Source: Nitrosopumilaceae archaeon (lineage in GTDB: Archaea; Thermoproteota; Nitrososphaeria; Nitrososphaerales; Nitrosopumilaceae). Taken from it: a stretch of DNA of 44,867 bases. Position 1 is the first letter of the stretch. Each line of letters opens with the position of its first letter. A program made the position numbers and the translations under genes. Below the pieces are notes generated by a model. That model saw only the letters and a program-made list of their open reading frames with translations, had not been told where the DNA came from and made no database searches. Shown piece by piece: positions 4,977 through 44,867 of this stretch. The stretch is from NCBI GenBank assembly GCA_900620265.3, contig UYNY03000056.1, positions 1 through 44,867 of the forward strand, written 5' to 3'.

Positions 4977-7117
4977 TCCGGGCAGCCGTCGCCGTCGGCG
5001 TCGCCGTCATGGTCCTCCGGCTCGAGGGGGCACATGTCGGCGTCGTCTATGACGCGGTCAAGATCCGTATCGTGGACGAACCGGCTCTGGTCGGGCGTCA
5101 CGTCGGGGCAGCCGTCAAGGTCGCGGAACTTGTTCCACGTCTCGGGGGCCACCGGGCAGAGGTCCTCGCCGTCATAGTACCCGTCGCCGTCAGAGTCCGT
5201 CCGGGTCGGATCCGTGGGGGCGGCCCCGCGCACCTCGGGGCAGCCGTCATGATCCAGGTACCCGTCCACGTTCTCGGGCTCCGTGACGCACTGGTCCGTC
5301 CTGTCGGGGATGCCGTCGCCGTCAGTATCGATGAACGTGAACCTGTCGTCCCGGGCCGGCGCCGCGTCGGGACACCCGTCAGAGTCATCTATCATGTTGT
5401 GGGTCTCGGGGGCGCCGGGGCACTCGTCAAGCGCATCGGGGATGCCGTCGTTGTCAGAGTCATGGCCGGGGGGCGCCTTGTCGGGGCAGCCGTCAAGGTC
5501 GTCCACCCCGTTGTAGGTCTCCGGCTGGCCCGGGCAGAGGTCGAGGCGGTCCCTGATGCCGTCCCCGTCAGAGTCGGCAGTCGGCCTGCGGTCGGACAGA
5601 ACGTCGGGGCAGCCGTCAAGGTCGTCTATCATGTTGTAGGTCTCCCTCGCCTGGGGGCACTGGTCCAGCGAGTCGGGCACGCCGTCAAGGTCGGTGTCGC
5701 CGTCCGCGTGGCGCTCGACGCGGTCGGGGCAGCCGTCGCCGTCCATGTACCCGTTGCGCGTCTCCGGGATGTCAGGACACGAGTCGAGCGAGTCGGGGAT
5801 GCCGTCATAGTCGGCATCGCCGGGGGACGGGGTGCCGAACCCGCGCTCCTCGGGGCAGCCGTCGCGGTCAAGGTACCCGTCAAGGTTCTCAGGCTCCGTG
5901 ACGCACTGGTCCGTCCTGTCCGGGATGCCGTCGCCGTCAGTATCGGTGAACGCGAACCCGGCAAGGATGGTCGGGTCGTCGTCGGGGCAGCCGTCCGCAT
6001 CCTCGACCCCGTTGTACGTCTCGCGCTCGGCCGGGCAGCGGTCGTCAGCATCCGGTATGCCGTCGCGGTCAGAGTCCTGGGGGGCAGGTATCTTGTCGGG
6101 GCAGCCGTCAGTATCATCAACCCCGTTGTAGGTCTCCGGCTGGCCGGGGCAGAGGTCCAGGCGGTCCCTGATGCCGTCCCCGTCAGAGTCGGCCGCCGGC
6201 CTGTTCAGCGGGATGGTATCGGGGCAGCCGTCCGCATCCTCAAAGAGGTTGTAGGACTCCTTCGAGTCGGGGCAGGCGTCGGCGGTGTCGGGGATGCCGT
6301 CGCCGTCAGAGTCGGCGATGTGCGAGGGCAGCACCGGCGCCACGTCGGGGCAGCCGTCCTCGTCCTCGATCCCGTTGTACGTCTCGCGCTCGGTGGGACA
6401 CTGGTCCAGGCTGTCTATCACGAGGTCATAGTCGGCGTCCATCACGGGGGCAGATATCCCGCGCACGTCGGGGCAGCCGTCCCAGTCAAGGTACCCGTCA
6501 AGGTTCTCCGGCTCGAGCACGCACTGGTCCATCCGGTCCGGGATGCCGTCCCCGTCCGTGTCGGCGAACGTGAACGCGTCGTCCCGCTCGGGCGCCGCGT
6601 CGGGGCAGCCGTCCGTATCCTCAAAGAGGTTGTATGTCTCGGGCTCGGACGGGCACGCGTCAAGGGCGTCCGGTATTCCGTCAGAGTCAGAGTCGGAGGA
6701 GGACGGGCCGGCCACGGGGCAGCCGGCGGGATCGCCGTGGATGGATCCCGGGACCGACGGGCACGAGTCAAACGCGTCGGGGACGCCGTCAGAGTCAGAG
6801 TCGGAGGAGGGGGCCCCCTCGCCGGGGATGGTATCGGGGCAGCCGTCGTGGTCGCTGACCCGGTTGTATGTCTCCTTTACGGTGGGGCAGCTGTCAAGGT
6901 GGTCCTCTATGCCGTCAAAGTCCGCGTCGTACCAGGGGACGAACCCGGCGGGGCACCCGTCAATGTTGCCGCCGAGCCTTGGGTCATAGTCCTCCTTTAG
7001 GTGGGGGCATAGATCGACTGCGTCGGGGACGCCGTCCCCGTCCGAGTCGGCGTGCGCGGGGGCGGCGGCCGCTGCGGCCGCGGCCAAGAGCACCCCCAGC
7101 AGCGCGTACCGGATCAT
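4973..7117 (-). CDS. Secreted thrombospondin type-3 repeat protein, TSP3-A (714 aa)
   Basis: Has a signal peptide (ALLGVLLAAAAAAAAPAHA) followed almost entirely by about 17 calcium-binding TSP3 units of the form DSDGDGIPDxxDxCPxxPETYN...DGCPD. Each unit carries Asp-rich Ca2+ loops and two Cys, probably paired. The N-terminal cap includes a WYDADFDG unit and a TIPGEGAP segment, and the C-terminal cap includes PETWNKF, HDTDLD and EPEDHDGDADGDGCPE. Both caps recur in the two upstream paralogues. The middle shows two copies of a five-unit super-repeat ending TDQCVTEPEN(L/V)DGYLD. No membrane anchor or sorting signal is visible, so it may be released or held by other surface proteins. A TATA-like box lies about 29 bases upstream. 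The role is unknown; calcium-dependent adhesion or surface structure is inferred. Confidence 0.9.
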   Translation of the reverse strand: MIRYALLGVLLAAAAAAAAPAHADSDGDGVPDAVDLCPHLKEDYDPRLGGNIDGCPAGFVPWYDADFDGIEDHLDSCPTVKETYNRVSDHDGCPDTIPGEGAPSSDSDSDGVPDAFDSCPSVPGSIHGDPAGCPVAGPSSSDSDSDGIPDALDACPSEPETYNLFEDTDGCPDAAPERDDAFTFADTDGDGIPDRMDQCVLEPENLDGYLDWDGCPDVRGISAPVMDADYDLVIDSLDQCPTERETYNGIEDEDGCPDVAPVLPSHIADSDGDGIPDTADACPDSKESYNLFEDADGCPDTIPLNRPAADSDGDGIRDRLDLCPGQPETYNGVDDTDGCPDKIPAPQDSDRDGIPDADDRCPAERETYNGVEDADGCPDDDPTILAGFAFTDTDGDGIPDRTDQCVTEPENLDGYLDRDGCPEERGFGTPSPGDADYDGIPDSLDSCPDIPETRNGYMDGDGCPDRVERHADGDTDLDGVPDSLDQCPQARETYNMIDDLDGCPDVLSDRRPTADSDGDGIRDRLDLCPGQPETYNGVDDLDGCPDKAPPGHDSDNDGIPDALDECPGAPETHNMIDDSDGCPDAAPARDDRFTFIDTDGDGIPDRTDQCVTEPENVDGYLDHDGCPEVRGAAPTDPTRTDSDGDGYYDGEDLCPVAPETWNKFRDLDGCPDVTPDQSRFVHDTDLDRVIDDADMCPLEPEDHDGDADGDGCPE

Positions 7118-7141
7118 CTGTCGGCGCCGGCGGGGGCCGTA

Positions 7142-7151
7142 TCTATTAAAC
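7142..7151 (-). promoter_or_regulatory. TATA-like box of TSP3-A and dus
   Basis: TCTATTAAAC on the plus strand, centred about 29 bases before the ATG at 7117. It is the only A/T box upstream of the TSP3-A/dus pair. Confidence 0.6.
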
Positions 7152-7361
7152 TTCGCGTATCAGGGGTGCGCACCCCCATGCCGAAATTAGGGACGCCCCT
7201 GTTACGGGCACCCCTTGAACCGTTTGGGCCCGCCGGGGCGGCCCTCCCGGCATGTGACGTCCTCCGCGCGGGCCACAGGACGCGGGCGGCCACAGGATAC
7301 CGCCTGCCGGCACAGGGCGGGATCGGGCCGGGCGCCTCCCGGGTGCCCGGGCCCAGTACGG

Positions 7362-7370
7362 CTAATTATC
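7362..7370 (+). promoter_or_regulatory. TATA-like box before the 33-codon ORF
   Basis: CTAATTATC in a GC-rich spacer, centred 24 bases before ATG 7390. This matches the spacing at other genes in the window. Confidence 0.45.
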
Positions 7371-7389
7371 CGGGGGGACGCCCCGGACC

Positions 7390-7491
7390 ATGGCAAAGCT
7401 CACCGCCCGGCAGGAGGAGGCCACCAGGATCCTGATGGGGGAGCTTGGCCGCACCAGGGAATACGCAACAAGGCGCATTAAAGACTGGTAG
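7390..7491 (+). CDS. Possible small hydrophilic protein (33 aa)
   Basis: ATG 7390 to TAG 7489-7491 encodes a 33-residue, highly charged and probably helical peptide (LTARQEEATRILMGELGRTR, ending YATRRIKDW). The composition differs from the Arg/Gly/Pro-rich translations of non-coding spacer. A TATA-like box lies 24 bases upstream and the frame ends 11 bases before the convergent TSP3-B stop. These three points favour a real gene, although no family is recognised and the frame is short. It lies in the 385-base gap between two TSP3 genes on the opposite strand. Confidence 0.4.
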   Translation: MAKLTARQEEATRILMGELGRTREYATRRIKDW

Positions 7492-7502
7492 GTTCCGGCG
7501 GC

Positions 7503-10500
7503 CTAGGGGTCTGGGCAGCCGTCGGCGTCCGTGTCGCCGTCATGGTCCTCCGGCTCGGACGGGCAGAGGTCGACGCCGTCAAGCACGCCGTCAAGGTCCG
7601 TATCGTGGGCAAAGCGCTGCTGCTCTGGGTTGATGTCCGGGCAGCCGTCGTGGTCGGCGTACTTGTTCCACGTCTCGGGGGCCGTCGGGCACGAGTCCTG
7701 CGAGTCGGGGTACCCGTCCCTGTCAGAGTCGTCAGTCGGCGGCTCCTGCATGCCGGCCCCGCGCTCCTCGGGGCAGCCGTCATGATCAAGGTACCCGTCG
7801 AGGTTCTCCGGCTCGGTGACGCACTCGTCGATCCTGTCCTCGATGCCGTCACCGTCCGTGTCGGGGAACGTGAACCGGCTCTCCTCGACCGGCGCCGCGT
7901 CCGGGCAGCCGTCGGCGTCCTCGAACCTGTTGTACGTCTCGCGGACGTCGGGGCACTCGTCGATCGTATCTGGTATGCCGTCGCGGTCAGAGTCGGCCAT
8001 CGACGGGTCGGCGGCGGGGCAGCCTGCCAGCCTGGCATCAGAGGCGCCAGGCACGGACGGGCAGAGGTCCAGTATGTCCGGCACGCCGTCGCCGTCAGAG
8101 TCTGCGCGCGGCCTGTTCTCCGGCACAAAGTCGGGGCAGCCGTCGGCGTCCTCGAACCTGTTGTACGTCTCGCCGATCGCCGGGCACGCGTCGTCGGCGT
8201 CAAGTATGCCGTCGCCGTCAGAGTCGCCCGGCGGCGGTAGCGCGACGCTGTCGGGGCAGCCGTCGGCGTCGCGGAAGCCGTTGTACCTCTCGGCGACGTC
8301 CGGGCACGAGTCGATGCTGTCGGGGATGCCGTCATAGTCGGCGTCGGGCGCCTCTGCGATGCTCCGGGCGCCGCGCACGTCCGGACACCCGTCATGATCA
8401 AGGTACCCGTCGAGGTTCTCCGGCTCCGTCACGCACTGGTCGACCCTGTCCTCGATGCCGTCCCCGTCGGTATCCGGAAAGACGAACAGGCCGTCCCGCT
8501 CGGGCGCCGTGTCGGGGCAGCCGTCAGAGTCGTCCACCAGGTTGTAGGTCTCGCGGGCGTCGGGGCACTCATCAAGGGTGTCAGGTATGCCGTCGCGGTC
8601 AGAGTCGGGGTCAGGCGGCCCCTTTACGGGGCAGCCGGCCGGCATCCCGCCCGGCACGCCGGGGACCGCGGGGCACGCGTCAAGCCGGTCCGGCGTCCCG
8701 TCAGAGTCAGAGTCGGGGTCGAGGCCGCCCGTGGCCGCCAGGTCCGGGCAGCCGTCAGAGTCGTCGATCCTGTTGTATGTCTCGCGCACGAACGGGCACG
8801 CGTCGGCAGAGTCCGGGATGCCGTCATAGTCAGAGTCAAGATCCACCGGCAGGTCGCGCCGGTCCGGGCAGCCGTCCTCGTCCTGGTACCTGTTATAGTT
8901 CTCGCGCTCGGCAGGGCACTCGTCCTGCGCGTCCGGGATGCCGTCATAGTCGGCATCAGGCGGCCCCTCGACGCTGGGCGCGCCGCGGACGTCCGGGCAG
9001 CCGTCATGATCAAGGTACCCGTCGAGGTTCTCCGGCTCGGTGACGCACTGGTCCGTCCTGTCCTCGATGCCGTCCCCGTCGGTGTCGGCAAACGCAAAGG
9101 CCGCCTGGACGACCGGCGCCGCGTCGGGGCACCCGTCGGCATCCTCAAAGAGGTTGTACGTCTCTTGCATGTCGGGGCACGCGTCGAGCGTGTCGGGTAT
9201 CCCGTCAGAGTCAGAGTCCGGATCGTGCGGCCCCTTTACGGGGCATCCTGCCGGCGTACCGCCGGCCGGTCCGGGGACGGCCGGGCACGCGTCGAGCCGG
9301 TCGGGAGTCCCGTCAGAGTCAGAGTCGGCGTCGATCCTGTTCTCGGCTATGATGTCAGGGCAGCCGTCCGCGTCGTTGAGCCTGTTGTATGTCTCGGGCA
9401 CGAACGGGCAGAGGTCGTCCCGGTTCGGGATCTTGTCGCCGTCAGAGTCGACGGTGGCCGGCAGGTCGCGCCGGTCCGGGCAGCCGTCCTCGTCCTGGTG
9501 CCTGTTATAGTTCTCGCGCTCGGTAGGACACCGGTCGTCGGCGTCCGGGATGCCGTCATAGTCGGCATCGGGCGGCCCCTCGACGCTGGGCGCGCCGCGG
9601 ACGTCCGGGCAGCCGTCCCAGTCAAGATAGCCGTCCATGTTCTCCGGCTCGGTGACGCACTGGTCCGTCCTGTCCTCGATGCCGTCCCCGTCAGTATCTA
9701 TAAAGACGAACATGCCCGCGCGCGCCGGCGCCGTGTCGGGGCACCCGTCAGAGTCGTCGATCCTGTTGTAGGTCTCGGGGACGTCGGGGCACGCGTCAAG
9801 GTCGTCTGTTATCCCGTCAGAGTCGGCGTCCCCCGGGGACGGGCCCTTTACGGGGCAGCCGGCCGGCGGCGGGCCGGGGACTGACGGGCACGCGTCTATC
9901 CGGTCCGGCGTCCCGTCAGAGTCAGAGTCGGCCGCCACCCTGTTGTCGGCCACCACGTCGGGGCAGCCGTCGGCGTCGTTGAACCTGTTGTACGTCTCGG
10001 GCTGCAGCGGGCAGGCGTCGTCGGCGTCGGGGATGCCGTCAAGGTCGCGGTCCCCCACGGGCCCGCGCGGCAGGCTGTCCGGGCAGCCGTCCTCGTCCTT
10101 GAAGTTGTTGTACCGCTCCGCCACGTCGGGGCACATGTCCTCGGCGTCGGGGATGCCGTCAGAGTCCGCATCGTTGTTGACGAGCACCGACTCTGCGCCG
10201 CGGACATCGGGGCAGCCGTCCCAGTCAAGGTACCCGTCAACGTTCTCCGGCTCTGCGACGCACTGGTCGACCCTGTCCTCGATGCCGTCCCCGTCGGTAT
10301 CGACGAAGACGAACCGGTCCCCGCGGACCGGCGTCGCGTCGGGGCAGCCGTCAGAGTCGTCGATCCTGTTGTATGTCTCTGGCTCGGCCGGGCACGCGTC
10401 GAGCCTGTCGGGCACGCCGTCGCTGTCAGAGTCGGGGTCGTGCGGGTCCTTTACGGGGCAGCCAGCCGGCGTCCCGCCTGGCACGCCGGGGACGGCCGGG

Positions 10501-11501
10501 CACGCGTCGATCCTGTCCGGCGTCCCGTCAGAGTCAGAGTCGGGGTCGAGCTTGTTGTCCACCACGATGTCGGGGCAGCCGTCAGAGTCCTCGAGGTTGT
10601 TGTACGTCTCGGGCGCGAACGGGCAGGCGTCCTCGCTGTTGGTGATGCCGTCAGAGTCCGAGTCGTACGTGACAGGCAGGTCGCGCCTGTCGGGGCAGCC
10701 GTCGGCGTCCTGGTACCTGTTATAGTTCTCGCGCATGTCGGGGCACTCGTCCTCGGCGTCGGGGATGCCGTCATAGTCGGTGTCGGGGATTACCACGGAG
10801 GCGGCGCCCGGCTCCTCCGGGCAGCCGTCGCGGTCAAGGTGCCCGTCGATGTCCTCGGGCTCCGCCGGGCACGCGTCGCGCCTGTCCTCGATGCCGTCGC
10901 CGTCGGTGTCGGGGAACACAAAGCCGGTCTCCTCGAGCGGGGCAATATCGGGGCAGCCGTCCGCATCCTCGAACCCGTTGTAGGTCTCCGGCTGCCGCGG
11001 GCACTCGTCGATCCCGTCGTGGATCCCGTCAGAGTCGGCATCGCGCACAGGACCCGGCTCCCGCGGGCAGCCCACCGGATCCCCCTCCGGATCCCCCGGG
11101 ACGGCGGGGCACGCGTCGATCCTGTCCGGGGCGCCGTCAGAGTCAGAGTCGGGGCCGGGCGCGCCCTCGCCGGGGATGGTATCGGGGCAGCCGTCATCGT
11201 CGTCGACGCGGTTGTACGTCTCCCTTACGGTGGGGCACTCGTCAAGGTCGTCGACGATCCCGTCAAGGTCAGCATCATACCATGTCACGGATCTTGAGGG
11301 GCAGCCGTCAGTCTCCTGCCCCTCCTCAAAGTCCTCCCGCAGGTTGGGGCACTCGTCGACGGCGTCGGGAACGCCGTCCCCGTCGGTGTCGTCTATGGCG
11401 TGGGCCTCATATGCCGGGTATATCGCGACCGCCAGGAGCGCGAGCCCCAGGCAGAGCGCGGCCCGGCAGTCAGGCGTCAGGGCACCCGTCCGCATCCTCA
11501 T
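7503..11501 (-). CDS. Secreted thrombospondin type-3 repeat protein, TSP3-B (1332 aa)
   Basis: The largest of the three paralogues, with about 32 TSP3 units and the same N-cap (WYDADLDG, TIPGEGAPGPDS) and C-cap (PETWNKY, HDTDLDGVLDG, EPEDHDGDTDADGCPDP) as TSP3-A. The middle contains about five copies of a roughly 195-200-residue super-repeat of five units. A typical order is DADYDGIPD...RENYN, PFVPETYN, DSDSDGTPDR...AGCPVKGP (a short divergent unit), DGIPDTLDACP...ETYN, and DTDGDGIEDRTDQCVTEPEN...GCPDVRG. The signal peptide is CLGLALLAVAIYPAYEAHA. The start ATG at 11501 (or 11495) lies 32 bases inside the end of the upstream TSP3-C gene, implying translational coupling; no promoter is visible between them. 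Calcium binding follows from the family; the cellular role is inferred. Confidence 0.9.
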   Translation of the reverse strand: MRMRTGALTPDCRAALCLGLALLAVAIYPAYEAHAIDDTDGDGVPDAVDECPNLREDFEEGQETDGCPSRSVTWYDADLDGIVDDLDECPTVRETYNRVDDDDGCPDTIPGEGAPGPDSDSDGAPDRIDACPAVPGDPEGDPVGCPREPGPVRDADSDGIHDGIDECPRQPETYNGFEDADGCPDIAPLEETGFVFPDTDGDGIEDRRDACPAEPEDIDGHLDRDGCPEEPGAASVVIPDTDYDGIPDAEDECPDMRENYNRYQDADGCPDRRDLPVTYDSDSDGITNSEDACPFAPETYNNLEDSDGCPDIVVDNKLDPDSDSDGTPDRIDACPAVPGVPGGTPAGCPVKDPHDPDSDSDGVPDRLDACPAEPETYNRIDDSDGCPDATPVRGDRFVFVDTDGDGIEDRVDQCVAEPENVDGYLDWDGCPDVRGAESVLVNNDADSDGIPDAEDMCPDVAERYNNFKDEDGCPDSLPRGPVGDRDLDGIPDADDACPLQPETYNRFNDADGCPDVVADNRVAADSDSDGTPDRIDACPSVPGPPPAGCPVKGPSPGDADSDGITDDLDACPDVPETYNRIDDSDGCPDTAPARAGMFVFIDTDGDGIEDRTDQCVTEPENMDGYLDWDGCPDVRGAPSVEGPPDADYDGIPDADDRCPTERENYNRHQDEDGCPDRRDLPATVDSDGDKIPNRDDLCPFVPETYNRLNDADGCPDIIAENRIDADSDSDGTPDRLDACPAVPGPAGGTPAGCPVKGPHDPDSDSDGIPDTLDACPDMQETYNLFEDADGCPDAAPVVQAAFAFADTDGDGIEDRTDQCVTEPENLDGYLDHDGCPDVRGAPSVEGPPDADYDGIPDAQDECPAERENYNRYQDEDGCPDRRDLPVDLDSDYDGIPDSADACPFVRETYNRIDDSDGCPDLAATGGLDPDSDSDGTPDRLDACPAVPGVPGGMPAGCPVKGPPDPDSDRDGIPDTLDECPDARETYNLVDDSDGCPDTAPERDGLFVFPDTDGDGIEDRVDQCVTEPENLDGYLDHDGCPDVRGARSIAEAPDADYDGIPDSIDSCPDVAERYNGFRDADGCPDSVALPPPGDSDGDGILDADDACPAIGETYNRFEDADGCPDFVPENRPRADSDGDGVPDILDLCPSVPGASDARLAGCPAADPSMADSDRDGIPDTIDECPDVRETYNRFEDADGCPDAAPVEESRFTFPDTDGDGIEDRIDECVTEPENLDGYLDHDGCPEERGAGMQEPPTDDSDRDGYPDSQDSCPTAPETWNKYADHDGCPDINPEQQRFAHDTDLDGVLDGVDLCPSEPEDHDGDTDADGCPDP

Positions 11502-13893
11502 CCCCGTCGTAGTCCTCCGGATCCGCGGGACAGGCGTCGAACTGGTTCAGGACGCCGTCAAGATCTGAATCGTGCATGTACCTTGACTGCTCCGGTATCA
11601 CGTCGGGACAGCCGTCCCTGTCAAGGTACTTGTTCCACGTCTCGGGTGAGGCCGGGCACATGTCCGCCGCGTCCGGGATCCCGTCAGAGTCGGTGTCGAG
11701 CACCGTCACGCCCTCCGGCAGCGAGTCGGGGCAGCCGTCAAGATCCACGTACCTGTTCCAGACCTCGGCCTGGTCGGGGCAGACGTCCATCGAGTCGGGA
11801 ACGCCGTCGCCGTCAGAGTCCGGCGCGTCCTCCACGCCGTCGGGGCACCCGTCGTCGTCCTCGATCCCGTTGTAGATCTCGGCCTGCGCCCGGCACCTGT
11901 CAAGCCGGTCGGGTATCCCGTCGTTGTCAGTATCGATGAGCGGCGAGTCCTGGCGCACCGTATCCGGGCAGCCGTCGGCGTCCTGGAACCCGTTGTAGGA
12001 CTCGCGGACCGTCCTGCACTCGTCAATGTCATCGGGCACGCCGTCCCCGTCGATGTCGTTGTTGCCCACATAGTCGTCGGGGCAGCCGTCCGTGTCGGCG
12101 ATCCCGTTATAGTTCTCCGGCTGGCCGGGGCACCTGTCCCGGTAGTCGTGTATCCCGTCCCCGTCGGAGTCAGGCACGTTCCGCCCGTCGGCCACCACGT
12201 CCGGGCAGCCGTCAGAGTCGGCCAGCCCGTTGTAGGTCTCCGGCGAGTCCCTGCACCGGTCGTCCGCGTCCAGTATGCCGTCAAAGTCGGCGTCCCCGGG
12301 CCTCTCGTACGCCGGATAGTCGGGGCAGCCGTCCTCGTCCTCGTAGTTGTTAAAGCGCTCGCGCGCGTCGGGGCAGGCATCAATCGAGTCGGGTATCCCG
12401 TCAAAGTCGGTGTCGGCCGGCGGCAGCTCGTCGGGGCAGCCGTCGGCGTCCATGTGGCGGTTCCAGATCTCGGCAGAGTCGGGGCACATGTCAAGCGAGT
12501 CCCGGATCCCGTCGCCGTCAGCATCAGGCACGTCCGCGTCGGGGCAGCCGTCCGCGTCCTCGAACCCGTTGAACGTCTCGGGCTGGGTGGCGCACCTGTC
12601 GGCAAGGTCCGGTATGCCGTCGCCGTCGGCATCGGCCGCGGCCCCGCTCGGGGCCGTGTCCGGGCAGCCGTCCGCGTCCTGGAACCCGTTGTAGGTCTCG
12701 CGGACCGTCTTGCACTCGTCGACGGGGTCATAGACGCCGTCGCCGTCGGTGTCAGACGTCCTGCCAGAGTCGGGGCAGCCGTCGCGGTCGTCGATCCCGT
12801 TGATCGTCTCGGGCTGTCCCGGGCAGAGGTCCACATAGTCGCTGATGCCGTCCCCGTCGCCGTCGGGGACCGGCTTTGAGTCGCCGACAAAGTCGGGGCA
12901 GCCGTCCGTATCCTGGTACCTGTTGTACGTCTCTGGCGCGTCGCGGCACTCGTCCACGGAGTCGGGCACGCCGTCAAGGTCAGAGTCGGACTCTGTCAGG
13001 TAGGGGGGTATGTCCGGGCATCCGTCGTCGTCCTGGTAGCCGTTGTACCTCTCCATCTCGAGCGGGCAGAGGTCGGCCGCGCCGAGTATCCGGTCGCCGT
13101 CAGCATCATCGCGGGCCGACGCCGGGGGCGGCGCCACGTCGGGGCACCCGTCATAGTCTGAGAACCTGTTGTACGTCTCCTCCTGGTTTGGGCATATGTC
13201 AAACCTGTCGGCGATGCCGTCGCCGTCCGCGTCCTCAAAGTCCTCCGTCGGCGCCGTGTCGGGGCAGCCGTCAGTATCACGGAACCCGTTCACAGTCTCC
13301 GGCTGCGAGGGGCAGACGTCCTCGGCGTCTGGTATGCCGTCGCCGTCGGCGTCGGCGTCGCGCGGAGCTGGCGCCGTGTCGGGGCAGCCGTCCTCGTCCT
13401 GGTACCTGTTATAGTTCTCCATGCCGAGCGGGCACGCGTCGTCGGCGTCGGGTATGCCGTCGCGGTCCCTGTCAAGGGGGCTGATGTCGTCGGGGCAGCC
13501 GTCGCGGTCCATTACCCCGTTGAACACCTCCCTCTGGCTGGGGCACAGGTCCACAAGGTCCACAAAGCCGTCGCCGTCAGAGTCCGGCGTCCCGCCAGGC
13601 CCCGAGCCGGGCAGCGTGTCGGGGCAGCCGTCATCATCTGCCACGTTGTTGTACGTCTCCTTTAGGCCGGGGCAGAGGTCGTCCGTATCCTGGACGCCGT
13701 CAAAGTCCTCGTCGTACCACGGGACGAACTTTGAGGGGCAGCCGTCGGCCTCCCCAAGGCCGTCCTCGGGCAGGTTGGGGCACGCGTCGGCCTCGTCCTC
13801 GATCCCGTCGCGGTCCACGTCGGCCGCCAGCGCGGCGGGGACGGCTCCAAGCATTGCCAAGGCAAGCAGCGGAATGGCGAGGCCCCTGTCCAA
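11470..13893 (-). CDS. Secreted thrombospondin type-3 repeat protein, TSP3-C (807 aa)
   Basis: The first gene of the TSP3-C/TSP3-B pair. A signal peptide (AIPLLALAMLGAVPAALA) precedes about 20 TSP3 units. The N-cap (WYDEDFDGVQD...TLPGSGPG) and C-cap (PETWNKY, HDSDLDGVLNQ, DPEDYDGDEDADGCPDA) match the other two paralogues. The body differs: its super-repeat is about six units long and includes Cys-Arg or Cys-Lys units such as DECRDAPETYN, DECKTVRETYN and DRCRAQAEIYN, and EVWNRY/EIWNRH units. It lacks the VTEPEN unit that marks A and B. A TATA-like box lies about 29 bases before the ATG. No membrane anchor is visible. Confidence 0.9.
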   Translation of the reverse strand: MDRGLAIPLLALAMLGAVPAALAADVDRDGIEDEADACPNLPEDGLGEADGCPSKFVPWYDEDFDGVQDTDDLCPGLKETYNNVADDDGCPDTLPGSGPGGTPDSDGDGFVDLVDLCPSQREVFNGVMDRDGCPDDISPLDRDRDGIPDADDACPLGMENYNRYQDEDGCPDTAPAPRDADADGDGIPDAEDVCPSQPETVNGFRDTDGCPDTAPTEDFEDADGDGIADRFDICPNQEETYNRFSDYDGCPDVAPPPASARDDADGDRILGAADLCPLEMERYNGYQDDDGCPDIPPYLTESDSDLDGVPDSVDECRDAPETYNRYQDTDGCPDFVGDSKPVPDGDGDGISDYVDLCPGQPETINGIDDRDGCPDSGRTSDTDGDGVYDPVDECKTVRETYNGFQDADGCPDTAPSGAAADADGDGIPDLADRCATQPETFNGFEDADGCPDADVPDADGDGIRDSLDMCPDSAEIWNRHMDADGCPDELPPADTDFDGIPDSIDACPDARERFNNYEDEDGCPDYPAYERPGDADFDGILDADDRCRDSPETYNGLADSDGCPDVVADGRNVPDSDGDGIHDYRDRCPGQPENYNGIADTDGCPDDYVGNNDIDGDGVPDDIDECRTVRESYNGFQDADGCPDTVRQDSPLIDTDNDGIPDRLDRCRAQAEIYNGIEDDDGCPDGVEDAPDSDGDGVPDSMDVCPDQAEVWNRYVDLDGCPDSLPEGVTVLDTDSDGIPDAADMCPASPETWNKYLDRDGCPDVIPEQSRYMHDSDLDGVLNQFDACPADPEDYDGDEDADGCPDA

Positions 13894-13916
13894 TCTAGGG
13901 CGGCCCCGGGGATCCG

Positions 13917-40608: not shown

Positions 40609-41233
40609 TCATGGGGGCCATGGATCCTGCCCGACGGGGCGGACCTCCGGCGCGTCGCCGGGCGCGGCAGGGACCTCCCCGTATACGCGGATCGTGATCT
40701 CGCGCGATGCATCGTTGCCGGACGCGTCTGACGCCGTGAACGAGACCGTGGTGTTGCCTAGCTGGAACAGGGATCCGGGCGCGTGCGAGGAGACGGGGAC
40801 GTCCCCGTCAACGAGGTCGAGAGCCGCGGGAAGCGCAAACTCGACGGCTGCAGAATCCCGTCTCCTGCCGCGACCGGGGGCACCTCCGGGACGCCCGATA
40901 TCACGGGCGGGGTGGTGTCAGTTATGGCGACTACCGGGTACGAGGTATGTCGGCAGGCCCGGTGGCGGTCCATGTGGCCGTGATGGAACCGGGCGGGAAC
41001 GCGCTGGGGGCGTTGTTTCGTATTGTGTGGTTTGCCGGGGCGGTGGGCTAGCCCATATCCACCGCGGTCAGCGGGCCAGTGGCCTCCGTCGTCATATCCG
41101 GCGGGGCGGCGAACGCGGCGTTCAGGACGGATCCGACGGCCGGCTCGTCTGCAAACACCGTACCTGTAAACAGCGCGGACAGTGCAATTGTTAAAATTAT
41201 GCGTGCAGGATGTATTGGGGGATGCCCGGCCAT
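40609..41233 (-). pseudogene. Broken secreted HYR-domain protein gene
   Basis: Starts at ATG 41233 with a signal peptide (RIILTIALSALFTGTVFA) and VLNAAFAAPPDMTTEATGPL, then hits TAG at 41048-41050. The same frame resumes with NHTIRNNAPSAFPPGSITAT, then shifts to a second frame (YPVVAITDTTPPVISGVPEV). Near 40853 it shifts to a third (AAVEFALPAALDLVDGDVPV, GNTTVSFTASDASGNDAS), ending at TGA 40609-40611. All pieces match, in order, the intact protein at 43981-44867 (NHTVHNDAPDAFPLGRTVVT, LDTTPPEIAGLPS, EVPEALDLVDGAVPV). One nonsense codon plus two frameshifts indicate a decayed duplicate. Confidence 0.8.
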
Positions 41234-41237
41234 TCTC

Positions 41238-42404
41238 CTACTCGACAACAACCCCACCTATCATCCACGGGTGCAGCCCGCATATCACAGTATACCTCCC
41301 GGGCTCCTCGAAGACATGCGAGTGTGAGTCGCCGGGTTCCATGTACGAGTAATGCGCGTGCTCTGGGTCGGAGTCGAGGTTTGTGTAGAGGCCCGGCATG
41401 TGGTCGATGGCGTCTGCGTTGAACCACGTGAGGGCCTCGCCCCGCTGTATCGTGGTCTCGGGCGGGGCGAAGCATATGCCGGTCCTGCTGCAGTCCGTGG
41501 ACGCCGCGCCGAGCGGGATCACGGCCACGTTCTCCCCCGAGTAAGAGTCGGGCACGGGGTGCGCCAGGACCGTATTGTTCGCGGTGGAGAGCTGCGGGGG
41601 CGGCTCGATGAAATAGTAATAGTCTATGTCAGGATCCACCCCACCGAACGCCGGAGGCTCCGAGAGCCGCCCCATGAACAGTATCGCGCCGCTCGCGTCG
41701 TCCAGGATCGCAAAGATGAACGGGCGGTCGGCGGCAAAGTACACGGGGGGATCAGACAGACCATAAAAAGATGACACGATCGTGGTGGTCGCGGCCGCCT
41801 CCGTGCCCTTTTCATGCACGTCGAGGAACGTGTCATGAGCGGCCTTTGTGACATAGATGTTTAGCGGGCCAGGATCCGCAATGCCGGACAGATCCGCGTC
41901 AGCCGGGTCAAAGACGTCCGGCATGCCGGCTTCCTCCAGGTACCCCCTCAGGTCGTAGCCCGATGTCAGCGTGAACTTTGGGAGCGTTACGCTGACCTCT
42001 CTCGTCTCCAGCATGCCGTCCCACTCCCTTATCATGCCGGGGGTCACCCTGCCGCCGGGCGTTATCGAGTACGTCCTCTTGCCGCCGTGCCTGCCGCAGA
42101 GCTCCTCGAGGACGAGATCCTTTGATGGCTCGGCCTCCTGCCTCGCGTCCCCGCAGACGGGGCACTCGGGGACGCGCTCTATGGCGGTGCTGGTAAACTC
42201 CATGGACTCGAGGTCGATGTGCAGGATCCTGCGCGAGAGCGCCGGCTCGCGGCCCATCACCACGCGCGCGGCCTCTGCCACCTCGATGCCGCCGACCACC
42301 GACAGTATCGAGGGGTGCACGCCCTCGATGCTGCACGTGGGCATCGAGTCCTCGTCCAGACCGGGGAATATGCAGTTATAGCAGGCGGTCCTGCCGGGAA
42401 GCAC
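41238..42404 (-). CDS. Chimeric frame: ThiF/MoeB C-terminal fragment + serpin C-terminus + cupredoxin
   Basis: 388 codons from GTG 42404, through three unrelated modules. Residues 1 to about 118 match the C-terminal half of MoeB/ThiF E1-like enzymes (GRTACYNCIFPG and ERVPECPVCGDA zinc Cys pairs, LSVVGGIEVAEAAR). The nucleotide-binding half is missing, and ThiF-like sequence continues in frame upstream (TGGGAGQVFTVLPG) to the edge of the serpin gene. Residues about 120-250 are the last third of a serpin, with hinge EKGTEAAATTTIVSS and signature DRPFIFAILDDASGAILFMG. Residues about 291-388 are a cupredoxin with His 335 and C375-x2-H-x2-M381. There is no signal peptide, and cytosolic and extracellular modules are mixed. 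It is probably a rearrangement product; translation is uncertain. Confidence 0.75.
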   Translation of the reverse strand: MLPGRTACYNCIFPGLDEDSMPTCSIEGVHPSILSVVGGIEVAEAARVVMGREPALSRRILHIDLESMEFTSTAIERVPECPVCGDARQEAEPSKDLVLEELCGRHGGKRTYSITPGGRVTPGMIREWDGMLETREVSVTLPKFTLTSGYDLRGYLEEAGMPDVFDPADADLSGIADPGPLNIYVTKAAHDTFLDVHEKGTEAAATTTIVSSFYGLSDPPVYFAADRPFIFAILDDASGAILFMGRLSEPPAFGGVDPDIDYYYFIEPPPQLSTANNTVLAHPVPDSYSGENVAVIPLGAASTDCSRTGICFAPPETTIQRGEALTWFNADAIDHMPGLYTNLDSDPEHAHYSYMEPGDSHSHVFEEPGRYTVICGLHPWMIGGVVVE

Positions 42405-42463
42405 GGTGAATACCTGCCCGGCGCCGCCGCCCGTAACCCGGGCGCCCGTCCCAGCGGACGGCG

Positions 42464-43957
42464 CTAGTTCCCGAACGTCGTGACCACGCCAGCCGCCGGC
42501 TCTGCCATCCTGCCCATGAATAGGACGGCCCCGGTGGCGTCATCCAGCACCGCGAACATGAACGGGCGGTCCATGACGAGCTCCCCGTCGCCCCGTATCC
42601 AGGACATGTCGGGCGGGTCGTGGACCCCCTTCCTGTCCGTGTCCATGACCGCCTTTTGTATCACCCTGTCAACGTGCATGCCCGGGGCGATCCCGCCGAG
42701 GCTTGCCGACCGCTTGTCAAAGGCGGCGGAGACGCCGAGATCACCGAGCGGGCCGCGCATGTCCGTGTGCGACTCTGCGCTGAACCGCGGCACGTACAGG
42801 TCGATCTTCTCGGGGCGGAGCCCGGACATCAAGCCCGCCAGATCCCCCGCGTCGAGCCCCGCCTCGACGGACGCCAGGTCCGCGCCCGCGCCGGGTATAA
42901 CGGCCAGCATTGACAGGCCGCCCCCGAGCGGGAGCCACAGCACCTCACCGTCCCCGATGTCGCGGTGCCAGCAGGCGCACTCTGGCTGCCTCATGAACTC
43001 CAGCGGCGCAGAGTCGTTCGCGCCGCCCGGCCGGTGCTCGTTGTACGCCAGACCCTCCACCCCCCTCGGACCCTCGGTCCGCACGGTCCGCACGTCGCCC
43101 GTCCAGTGCGCATGGTATGCCGCGTCGCCCGGGAACCAGACGTCCCACCCGGCGGCAAGGTATGCCGGACTCGACACCAGCAGGCCCGCGGGTGTCGAGC
43201 CGTCCCTAGGCAGGATGCCGGTGATGGCGCCGTCCGTGGCAAACTCGGCAAGGGCGGACTCGCCGCCGTATTCCCAGGCAGACCCGCCCGGATCGCCGTA
43301 GAACTGTATGTCTGTCCTGTACGCGCCGCGCACATCGTCAACGAGGGGCCCGGCGCCGGGGGCTGGATCGCCGTACACCTGCACAAAGCTCCTGACGGTC
43401 AGGGACTTGTGGAGGGCCCACGCCTCTATCCGGGTGACAAGATCCCTCGCCTCCTCCCTGCGATCCCCGGCGTCCATCTCCAGGCCGAATGCGCGCCGTA
43501 TCTCCTCCCGGGTGTCCGAGGCGGCCCCCTCGTGCAGTGCCGAGAACGCGAGGTACAGGGATATCGGAGAAAAGAAGACGTTCCCGCCGTCCCCTGCCAG
43601 GACGCGGTACATCTCCATCGCGAACCCGTTGTTCTCGGCGGCAAGCCCCCGGGGTTCTGCGACGCGTGAGGGGGAGGCCATGTACGGGTAGGATGCGGTC
43701 CACGGGGCCGGCTCGAACCCGCGCGAGACGAGCACGTCCGCGCGGTCCTCTTCGACGCACGCGTGGGACCCGCGCGTCGTCTCCAGCAGCACCAGGCCTG
43801 TCCCGCACGACGCCTGCGGGGATCCGGTCGGCCCGCCGGGCCCGGGCAGGGCGTCGGAGAGGGGGATCCACGGCGCGCACAGGGCAGCCAGCAGGATCAG
43901 CAGGCAGGATGTGCCGGGGACGGGTAATGTCGAGGGCAGGCGCCGCGCCCGCGTCAT
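42464..43957 (-). CDS. Secreted serpin
   Basis: 497 aa from ATG 43955-43957. Signal peptide SCLLILLAALCAPWIPLSDA, then a small Cys module (ASCGTGLVLLETTRGSHACV, EEDRADVLVSRGFEPA), then a full serpin fold: FAMEMYRVLAGDGGNVFFSP, ISLYLAFSALHEGAASDTRE, LLVSSPAYLAAGWDVWFPGD, PRFSAESHTDMRGPLGDLGV and the signature DRPFMFAVLDDATGAVLFMG. The reactive loop (MDTDRKGVHDPPDMSWIRGD) lacks the EGTEAAAAT hinge, so it may not inhibit by the classic mechanism. It is next to a ThiF-serpin-cupredoxin chimera and near two subtilases. A weak A/T box lies about 26 bases upstream. The frame is open further upstream, but the signal peptide fixes the start. Confidence 0.88.
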   Translation of the reverse strand: MTRARRLPSTLPVPGTSCLLILLAALCAPWIPLSDALPGPGGPTGSPQASCGTGLVLLETTRGSHACVEEDRADVLVSRGFEPAPWTASYPYMASPSRVAEPRGLAAENNGFAMEMYRVLAGDGGNVFFSPISLYLAFSALHEGAASDTREEIRRAFGLEMDAGDRREEARDLVTRIEAWALHKSLTVRSFVQVYGDPAPGAGPLVDDVRGAYRTDIQFYGDPGGSAWEYGGESALAEFATDGAITGILPRDGSTPAGLLVSSPAYLAAGWDVWFPGDAAYHAHWTGDVRTVRTEGPRGVEGLAYNEHRPGGANDSAPLEFMRQPECACWHRDIGDGEVLWLPLGGGLSMLAVIPGAGADLASVEAGLDAGDLAGLMSGLRPEKIDLYVPRFSAESHTDMRGPLGDLGVSAAFDKRSASLGGIAPGMHVDRVIQKAVMDTDRKGVHDPPDMSWIRGDGELVMDRPFMFAVLDDATGAVLFMGRMAEPAAGVVTTFGN

Positions 43958-43978
43958 GGCACGCGGGATGAGACAGCG

Positions 43979-43987
43979 GATCAATTG
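43979..43987 (-). promoter_or_regulatory. Weak TATA-like box before the serpin gene
   Basis: GATCAATTG on the plus strand, about 26 bases before ATG 43957, overlapping the stop of the HYR-domain gene. It is a poor match; co-transcription from upstream is equally possible. Confidence 0.3.
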
Positions 43988-44867
43988 GGCCCACCGGGTT
44001 CGGGGCGGCCCTCTGCCGCGCCGCGCGCCGGATCGACGGCCGGCTCGACCGTGACCAGCACGGAGGATGTCGCCGCGTTGCCCGAGGAGTCCTCTGCCAC
44101 GAACATCACCGTCGTGTTGCCCGCCGGGAACATGCCACCGGGCTCGTGGGACGCCGTCACTGGGACTGCCCCGTCGACCAGGTCGAGCGCCTCCGGCACC
44201 TCGAACCACACCACGGCTCCGTTCCATGTCGCGTTGGCCGTGATACTGGGCAGCCCGGCGATCTCGGGGGGCGTGGTGTCAAGTATGGTGACCGTCTGGT
44301 TTGCGACATGCATGGGGCCCGTAGATCCCGAGGCGGCCCATGTCACGACGGTACGGCCTAGTGGGAACGCGTCCGGCGCGTCATTGTGCACGGTGTGGTT
44401 GAGCGGGACGGCGGCGGGCGTCCCGAGATCCACCCCGGTCAGCGGGCCCTCCGCCTCTGCGACTATGTCGGGCGGCGGCAGGAACACGGATTCCTGCGCC
44501 GCGGGCACGGCTCCGGACGCCGACGGGCCCGCGGGCGCCCGCGTGTCGGCTGGCGGCTCTGGATCCGGGACCGGTTCTGCCTGCTCCTCGTCCGGTTCTG
44601 CCGGCGGCTCCTCTGGCGCTGCCGGCTGTCCCTCCGGATCAGGCGCGGGTTCCGCCGGAGCCTTTGGCTCCTCCCACGGGTCCAGCACCACGACTATGCG
44701 CGTCTTTGGCTGGGCCTCGTTGCCGGCAGCGTCCGCGCACGTATAGCGGAGCGCCTGCGGGCCGGGCGAGCGCGCGTTGATGGCGCCGTCAGAGTAGACG
44801 GTCCTCTCTGGATCGCGGTCGTCGGTGCACGTGGCGCCCGGGTCCTCGTAGGGGACGCCGTACGGGT
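43981..44867 (-). CDS. HYR/Ig-like repeat surface protein, N-terminus outside the window
   Basis: At least 295 residues, open to the window end. The first visible part (YGVPYEDPGATCTD...LRYTCADAAGNEAQPKTRIV) is an Ig-like DUF5011/HYR module with the Cys pair also seen in the 1458-aa subtilase. A Pro/Glu/Asp-rich spacer (PAEPDEEQAEPVPDPEPPAD) follows, like a wall-spanning or extended stalk. Then come two HYR modules (GPLTGVDLGTPAAVPLNHTV...VTILDTTPPEIAGLPS and EVPEALDLVDGAVPVTASHE...FVAEDSSGNAATSSVLVTVE). It ends GRPEPGGPN with no anchor. An intact version of the broken gene at 40609-41233. Extracellular binding or structural role is inferred from the domain family. Confidence 0.8.
   Translation of the reverse strand, partial: PYGVPYEDPGATCTDDRDPERTVYSDGAINARSPGPQALRYTCADAAGNEAQPKTRIVVVLDPWEEPKAPAEPAPDPEGQPAAPEEPPAEPDEEQAEPVPDPEPPADTRAPAGPSASGAVPAAQESVFLPPPDIVAEAEGPLTGVDLGTPAAVPLNHTVHNDAPDAFPLGRTVVTWAASGSTGPMHVANQTVTILDTTPPEIAGLPSITANATWNGAVVWFEVPEALDLVDGAVPVTASHEPGGMFPAGNTTVMFVAEDSSGNAATSSVLVTVEPAVDPARGAAEGRPEPGGPN

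Follow-up and report, generated by a model that had tools for sequence, protein, structure and literature searches.

How a single open reading frame came to carry parts of a ThiF-type enzyme, a serpin and a cupredoxin, and whether the result is a working gene, is the question raised by one locus of a Nitrosopumilaceae archaeon. The window, i.e., the whole stretch of 44,867 nucleotides analysed, is contig C56 (UYNY03000056.1) of a 113-contig genome with 1,996,680 bases (GCA_900620265.3), and the frame and its parts are the following:

41238-42404, minus strand: chimeric open reading frame of 388 aa, with a GTG start and a TAG stop at 41238-41240
42045-42421, minus strand: piece of a ThiS-ThiF (MoeB-like) gene, about codons 247-372 of the 439-codon parent on contig C27, with 1 mismatch in 377 bases
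42045-42046: new junction between the ThiF piece and the serpin, inside the frame, with the 2-bp common sequence CA
41145-42046, minus strand: 3' part of a serpin-cupredoxin gene and the start of the next gene, 94.3% identical to C22:1186-2087, no gaps
41655-42044, minus strand: C-terminal third of the serpin (Pfam 242-370), with the hinge of the reactive-centre loop, EKGTEAAATTT
41241-41592, minus strand: cupredoxin region (Copper-bind, residues 323-408 of the queried frame)

The sequence-only reading had described three unrelated modules read through without a stop, and the frame, open stop-to-stop from 42539 on the minus strand, does match all three in Pfam. The ThiF match covers only profile positions 145-238 of 238 (3.8e-13), so that the nucleotide-binding half with its glycine-rich loop (positions 1-144) is absent, as had been claimed, while the C27 parent matches 1-238. 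The serpin match is likewise restricted to positions 242-370 of 370 (1.5e-33), in agreement with the reported loss of the first two thirds, and the complete serpin fold with beta-sheet A, present in the C22 parent (Pfam 2-370), is not there. The Copper-bind match (positions 5-99 of 99) lies just over the cut-off at 1.2e-4, and no signal peptide or other export signal was seen in the frame by inspection, again as stated for the copper module. By inspection, the cupredoxin holds the His-Cys-His-Met ligand set (DH...CGLHPWM), with an amicyanin-like C-x2-H-x2-M motif (CGLHPWM) and an upstream His, and the translated ThiF piece keeps the zinc-type CxxC pairs CYNC and CPVC; a phmmer search of the cupredoxin against solved structures gave no match at E 0.1. 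The reactive-centre hinge of small residues is retained as in C22: EKGTEAAATTTIVSS.

Both parents were found intact in the same genome; as a check, the sequence-only reading had proposed to look for separate moeB and serpin-cupredoxin genes in relatives. Contig C27 (L047) bears an intact 439-aa ThiS-ThiF gene, and C22 (L046):186-1994 is an intact secreted serpin-cupredoxin gene of 602 aa with a signal-peptide-like N-terminus (MRVAPPVAGLAALAALAPG), followed by a subtilase-like gene. Because of this intact gene, the serpin-cupredoxin order is taken as the native architecture, inherited as a unit, and therefore the frame contains only one new junction, 42045/42046. Thus, of the "three unrelated modules" of the earlier reading, the ThiF piece is indeed foreign to the serpin-cupredoxin, whereas the other two came together. 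Among the matches listed, none in the other genomes of the genus fully spans the serpin and cupredoxin domains. The single ThiF-piece mismatch to C27 falls at 42360, leaving an exact run of 315 bp (42045-42359), and the region 42045-42457 is 97% identical to C27:9600-10007. Relative to the intact paralogues the frame is truncated, lacking the first 334 codons of the C22 gene and, of the C27 gene, about codons 1-246 and 373-439. The likeness to the ThiF/MoeB/HesA (E1-like adenylating) family is confined to the C-terminal half of the domain, differing from the resident gene at 1 of 377 bases; neither the nucleotide-binding half nor the ThiS-like N-terminus is there, and the final 67 residues are lacking; in the multidomain alignment, the ThiF part aligned poorly. 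The frame itself holds no disabling mutation and is fully open, but its open length is unremarkable because each piece keeps its parent's native frame, the sole coincidence being one in-frame junction (1 in 3).

The fusion appears confined to the window. In 95 genomes of the genus, including the window's own, only the window spans ThiF and serpin among the matches listed (0 of the 94 others), with the ThiF matches listed ending at query residue 136-141, bar one that ends at a contig end, and the serpin matches listed starting at residue 137 or later. The strong ThiF matches listed are separate frames, mostly of 440-530 aa; serpins were found in 5 of 61 genomes by the serpin family search, and a wider scan of genome contigs returned separate serpin or ThiF relatives only. 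An ancient conserved multidomain protein, which the sequence-only reading had allowed for as the functional outcome, should have left the same fusion in these relatives and would hardly contain a ThiF piece near-identical to a resident gene; nothing was found in its favour, and we give it a negligible probability.

The two pieces differ in their distance from the parents, with 5.7% divergence in the serpin-cupredoxin piece versus 1 mismatch in 377 bp of the ThiF piece. The former shows 44 coding changes to C22 with dN/dS of about 0.35 (Nei-Gojobori), so that most of its divergence probably arose under constraint. Along the C22-like piece, the differences show more clustering than random placement would give. 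The one difference in the ThiF piece makes its duplication look much younger than that of the serpin-cupredoxin, although gene conversion could also cause such similarity, and the 1-in-377 difference is too small to reveal decay. The reactive-centre loop was considered as a hotspot of change and rejected, the excess being not significant in either of two pairs (3/15 vs 17/253 residues, p 0.09; 5/14 vs 73/416, p 0.09).

The surroundings of the frame are as follows:

42422-42463: spacer separating the ThiF piece from the serpin 1 stop, single-copy in the genome and not moeB-like
42464-43957, minus strand: neighbouring serpin 1, stop at 42464-42466, likely start at 43957, 85% identical to C101
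41145-41233, minus strand: beginning of a subtilase-type gene with its signal peptide (MAGHPPI...ARIILTIALSALFTGTVFAD), as seen in C22
40649-41152, minus strand: HYR-domain tail of a subtilase, 89% identical to C94 and 86% to C21
36645-40712, minus strand: subtilase (Peptidase_S8 in Pfam) gene adjoining the serpin cassette

Upstream, ThiF-like sequence had been thought to reach the stop codon of the neighbouring serpin; the frame does stay open further upstream, but the identity to moeB stops at 42421, which leaves 42 bases before that codon. No source of these 42 bp was found in the genome, and they are presumably the own 3' flank of serpin 1. The stretch 42472-44867 is 85% identical to C101. 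By inspection, serpin 1 and the serpin at C101:10919-12083 (L052) have the hinges DRKGVHDPPDM and DRKGVYDPPAM, without the small-residue pattern, and both are for that reason probably not inhibitory. Downstream, the second gene of the cassette is wrecked. The C22-like signal peptide is joined in frame to the HYR tail, with the protease core absent, and the resulting frame meets a nonsense TAG at 41048-41050 after 61 codons, the HYR tail having, in addition, two 1-base frameshifting deletions relative to C94. Since both cassette genes are damaged, a decaying duplicate is favoured. At the 42045/42046 joint, C22 and C27 have only CA in common, and the C22-like/HYR-like joint has a 5-bp overlap, TCGTC at 41145-41149; these overlaps of 2-5 bp suggest illegitimate recombination, with chance overlap as the alternative for two joints only. 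An insertion element around the ThiF piece was also sought, the repeat scan giving only short imperfect inverted pairs, none convincing as brackets; a virus-borne element was set aside as well, the junction sequence being absent from viral contigs, among which records near the window's genome may be missing.

Taken together, the frame is likely a recent chimera formed by illegitimate recombination within a mosaic protease-serpin-HYR family, and most likely non-functional. A second copy of the secreted serpin-cupredoxin gene, accompanied by its following subtilase gene, would have lost its 5' end of 334 codons; the vacated place would have been taken by 377 bp from within the resident ThiS-ThiF (MoeB-like) gene, joined in frame via the 2-bp overlap, and a deletion in the subtilase gene of the same cassette may have left the signal peptide and the broken HYR tail; the mechanism, the order of these events and the lack of function are what we infer from them. 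The recombination or deletion suggested at the outset thus agrees with the abrupt joints and the two intact parents, though with one new joint in the frame instead of two and without support for functional novelty. Chimeric genes and pseudogenes from illegitimate recombination of duplicated pieces are alike in their abrupt joints of 2-5 bp, intact parents, truncated ends and wrecked neighbour; in contrast to the usual cases, the joint here is in frame, the frame is still open and one donor is a housekeeping gene. A search of the literature for chimeric genes in archaea yielded nothing specific among the papers listed.

Against a non-functional chimera stand the 388 open codons and the dN/dS of the serpin-cupredoxin part, which was under constraint for most of its history. 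A new fusion protein, expressed and selected, would be consistent with the open frame, with both domains in native frame, and with the retained cupredoxin ligands and ThiF cysteine pairs. However, the first in-frame start sits within the moeB-derived piece, so that the native start is lost, and an extracellular copper domain is left without a signal peptide. The ThiF piece would be unable to bind ATP without its first half. Inhibitory serpins act by inserting the reactive-centre loop into beta-sheet A, and the chimera lacks most of that sheet. For these reasons, along with the wrecked neighbour gene and the absence of the fusion from any other genome searched, such a protein is considered very improbable; if the frame is translated, the cupredoxin is likely the only module to fold, stranded in the cytoplasm.

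The joints might also be products of the assembly, if a short-read assembler, meeting a repeat node in the ThiF piece, connected two unrelated contexts, or if the bin mixes differently arranged strains. We take the genome to be the one published as a MAG for Ca. Nitrosospongia ianthellae, a sponge-dwelling, ammonia-oxidising archaeon; that MAG is a short-read assembly made with SPAdes 3.11 (PMC6790972). Nextera adapter remnants occur on 18 contigs of this genome, and the 315-bp exact repeat shared with C27 exceeds the 127-bp overlap of contig ends, so that linking both joints needed read pairs or long reads, which is the chief caveat on the chimera. De Bruijn assemblers write only k-mers present in the reads, and therefore each joint should have been in the reads. 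C21 and C27 have exactly 127 bases in common at their ends, as de Bruijn contigs at k=127 would, and the longest exact run between the C22-like piece and C22 is 117, with no common 127-mer; if k was 127, the serpin-cupredoxin piece was therefore built from reads of its own. A swap would also have produced a broken moeB, whereas the C27 gene is intact and conserved, and a second, older broken joint lies 0.9 kb off, where there is no repeat of such length. An adapter-driven misjoin was rejected, there being no Nextera adapter in the window (up to 2 mismatches) and no N. Misassembly or strain mixing is accordingly held unlikely and looks less probable than a real chimera, and an assembly error at 42.05 kb, named by the sequence-only reading as a possible refutation, looks unlikely.

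As regards the assembly in general, the adapter remnants lie at C22:1-81 and on 17 other contigs, mostly at contig ends, and their translation (SLVGSEMCIRDR) would give false N-termini of predicted proteins, the C22 serpin frame included. At C32:10889-11158 (L086) and C21:8337-8616 (L054), 10 N lie between identical copies of 130-135 bp, scaffold joins that resemble unmerged overlaps.

The chimera may belong to a wider mosaic. In the parts of Moeller et al. (2019; PMC6790972) considered here, sponge-associated Thaumarchaeota are described as having secreted serpins beside subtilisin-like (S8) proteases, and proteins with HYR and Ig-like domains; the serpin beside a subtilase gene in the window resembles this system, whereas the window copy is a truncated one that contains a ThiF piece and lacks the signal peptide, and those parts mention no fusion. 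Among ten named contigs of the genome that were set against each other, some segments of 85-97% identity switch partner abruptly (e.g., C21:1160/1181 and C21:11093/11097), and other truncated serpin ends lie at C32:3572-3913 and C86:8-223, which suggests reshuffling in the family, but the ten contigs were chosen for carrying relatives and give no rate of it. A doubtful proposition is that of an actively reshuffling repertoire of protease, serpin and HYR genes, in which pieces change places and new in-frame combinations arise at a high rate, the chimera being a fresh product. If the reshuffling is frequent, a comparison of the secreted genes of the symbiont-host interface across sponge individuals could serve as its record. 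With both parents available, the locus shows the making and breaking of genes in a symbiont archaeon whose protease and serpin set is expanded, and a domain search alone would label the remnant MoeB or serpin.

The exact 127-base end overlap between C21:17378-17504 and C27:11160-11286, in opposite orientation, suggests that the moeB locus adjoins a serpin-subtilase cluster on the chromosome. Another mosaic patch is found between C94:10302-10455 (L090) and C101:12215-12368, where 154 bases are 96.8% identical in otherwise more divergent loci. Elsewhere in the window, there are many internal repeats of about 62-82% identity among the large frames at 4977-13900 on the minus strand, which would encode repetitive proteins.
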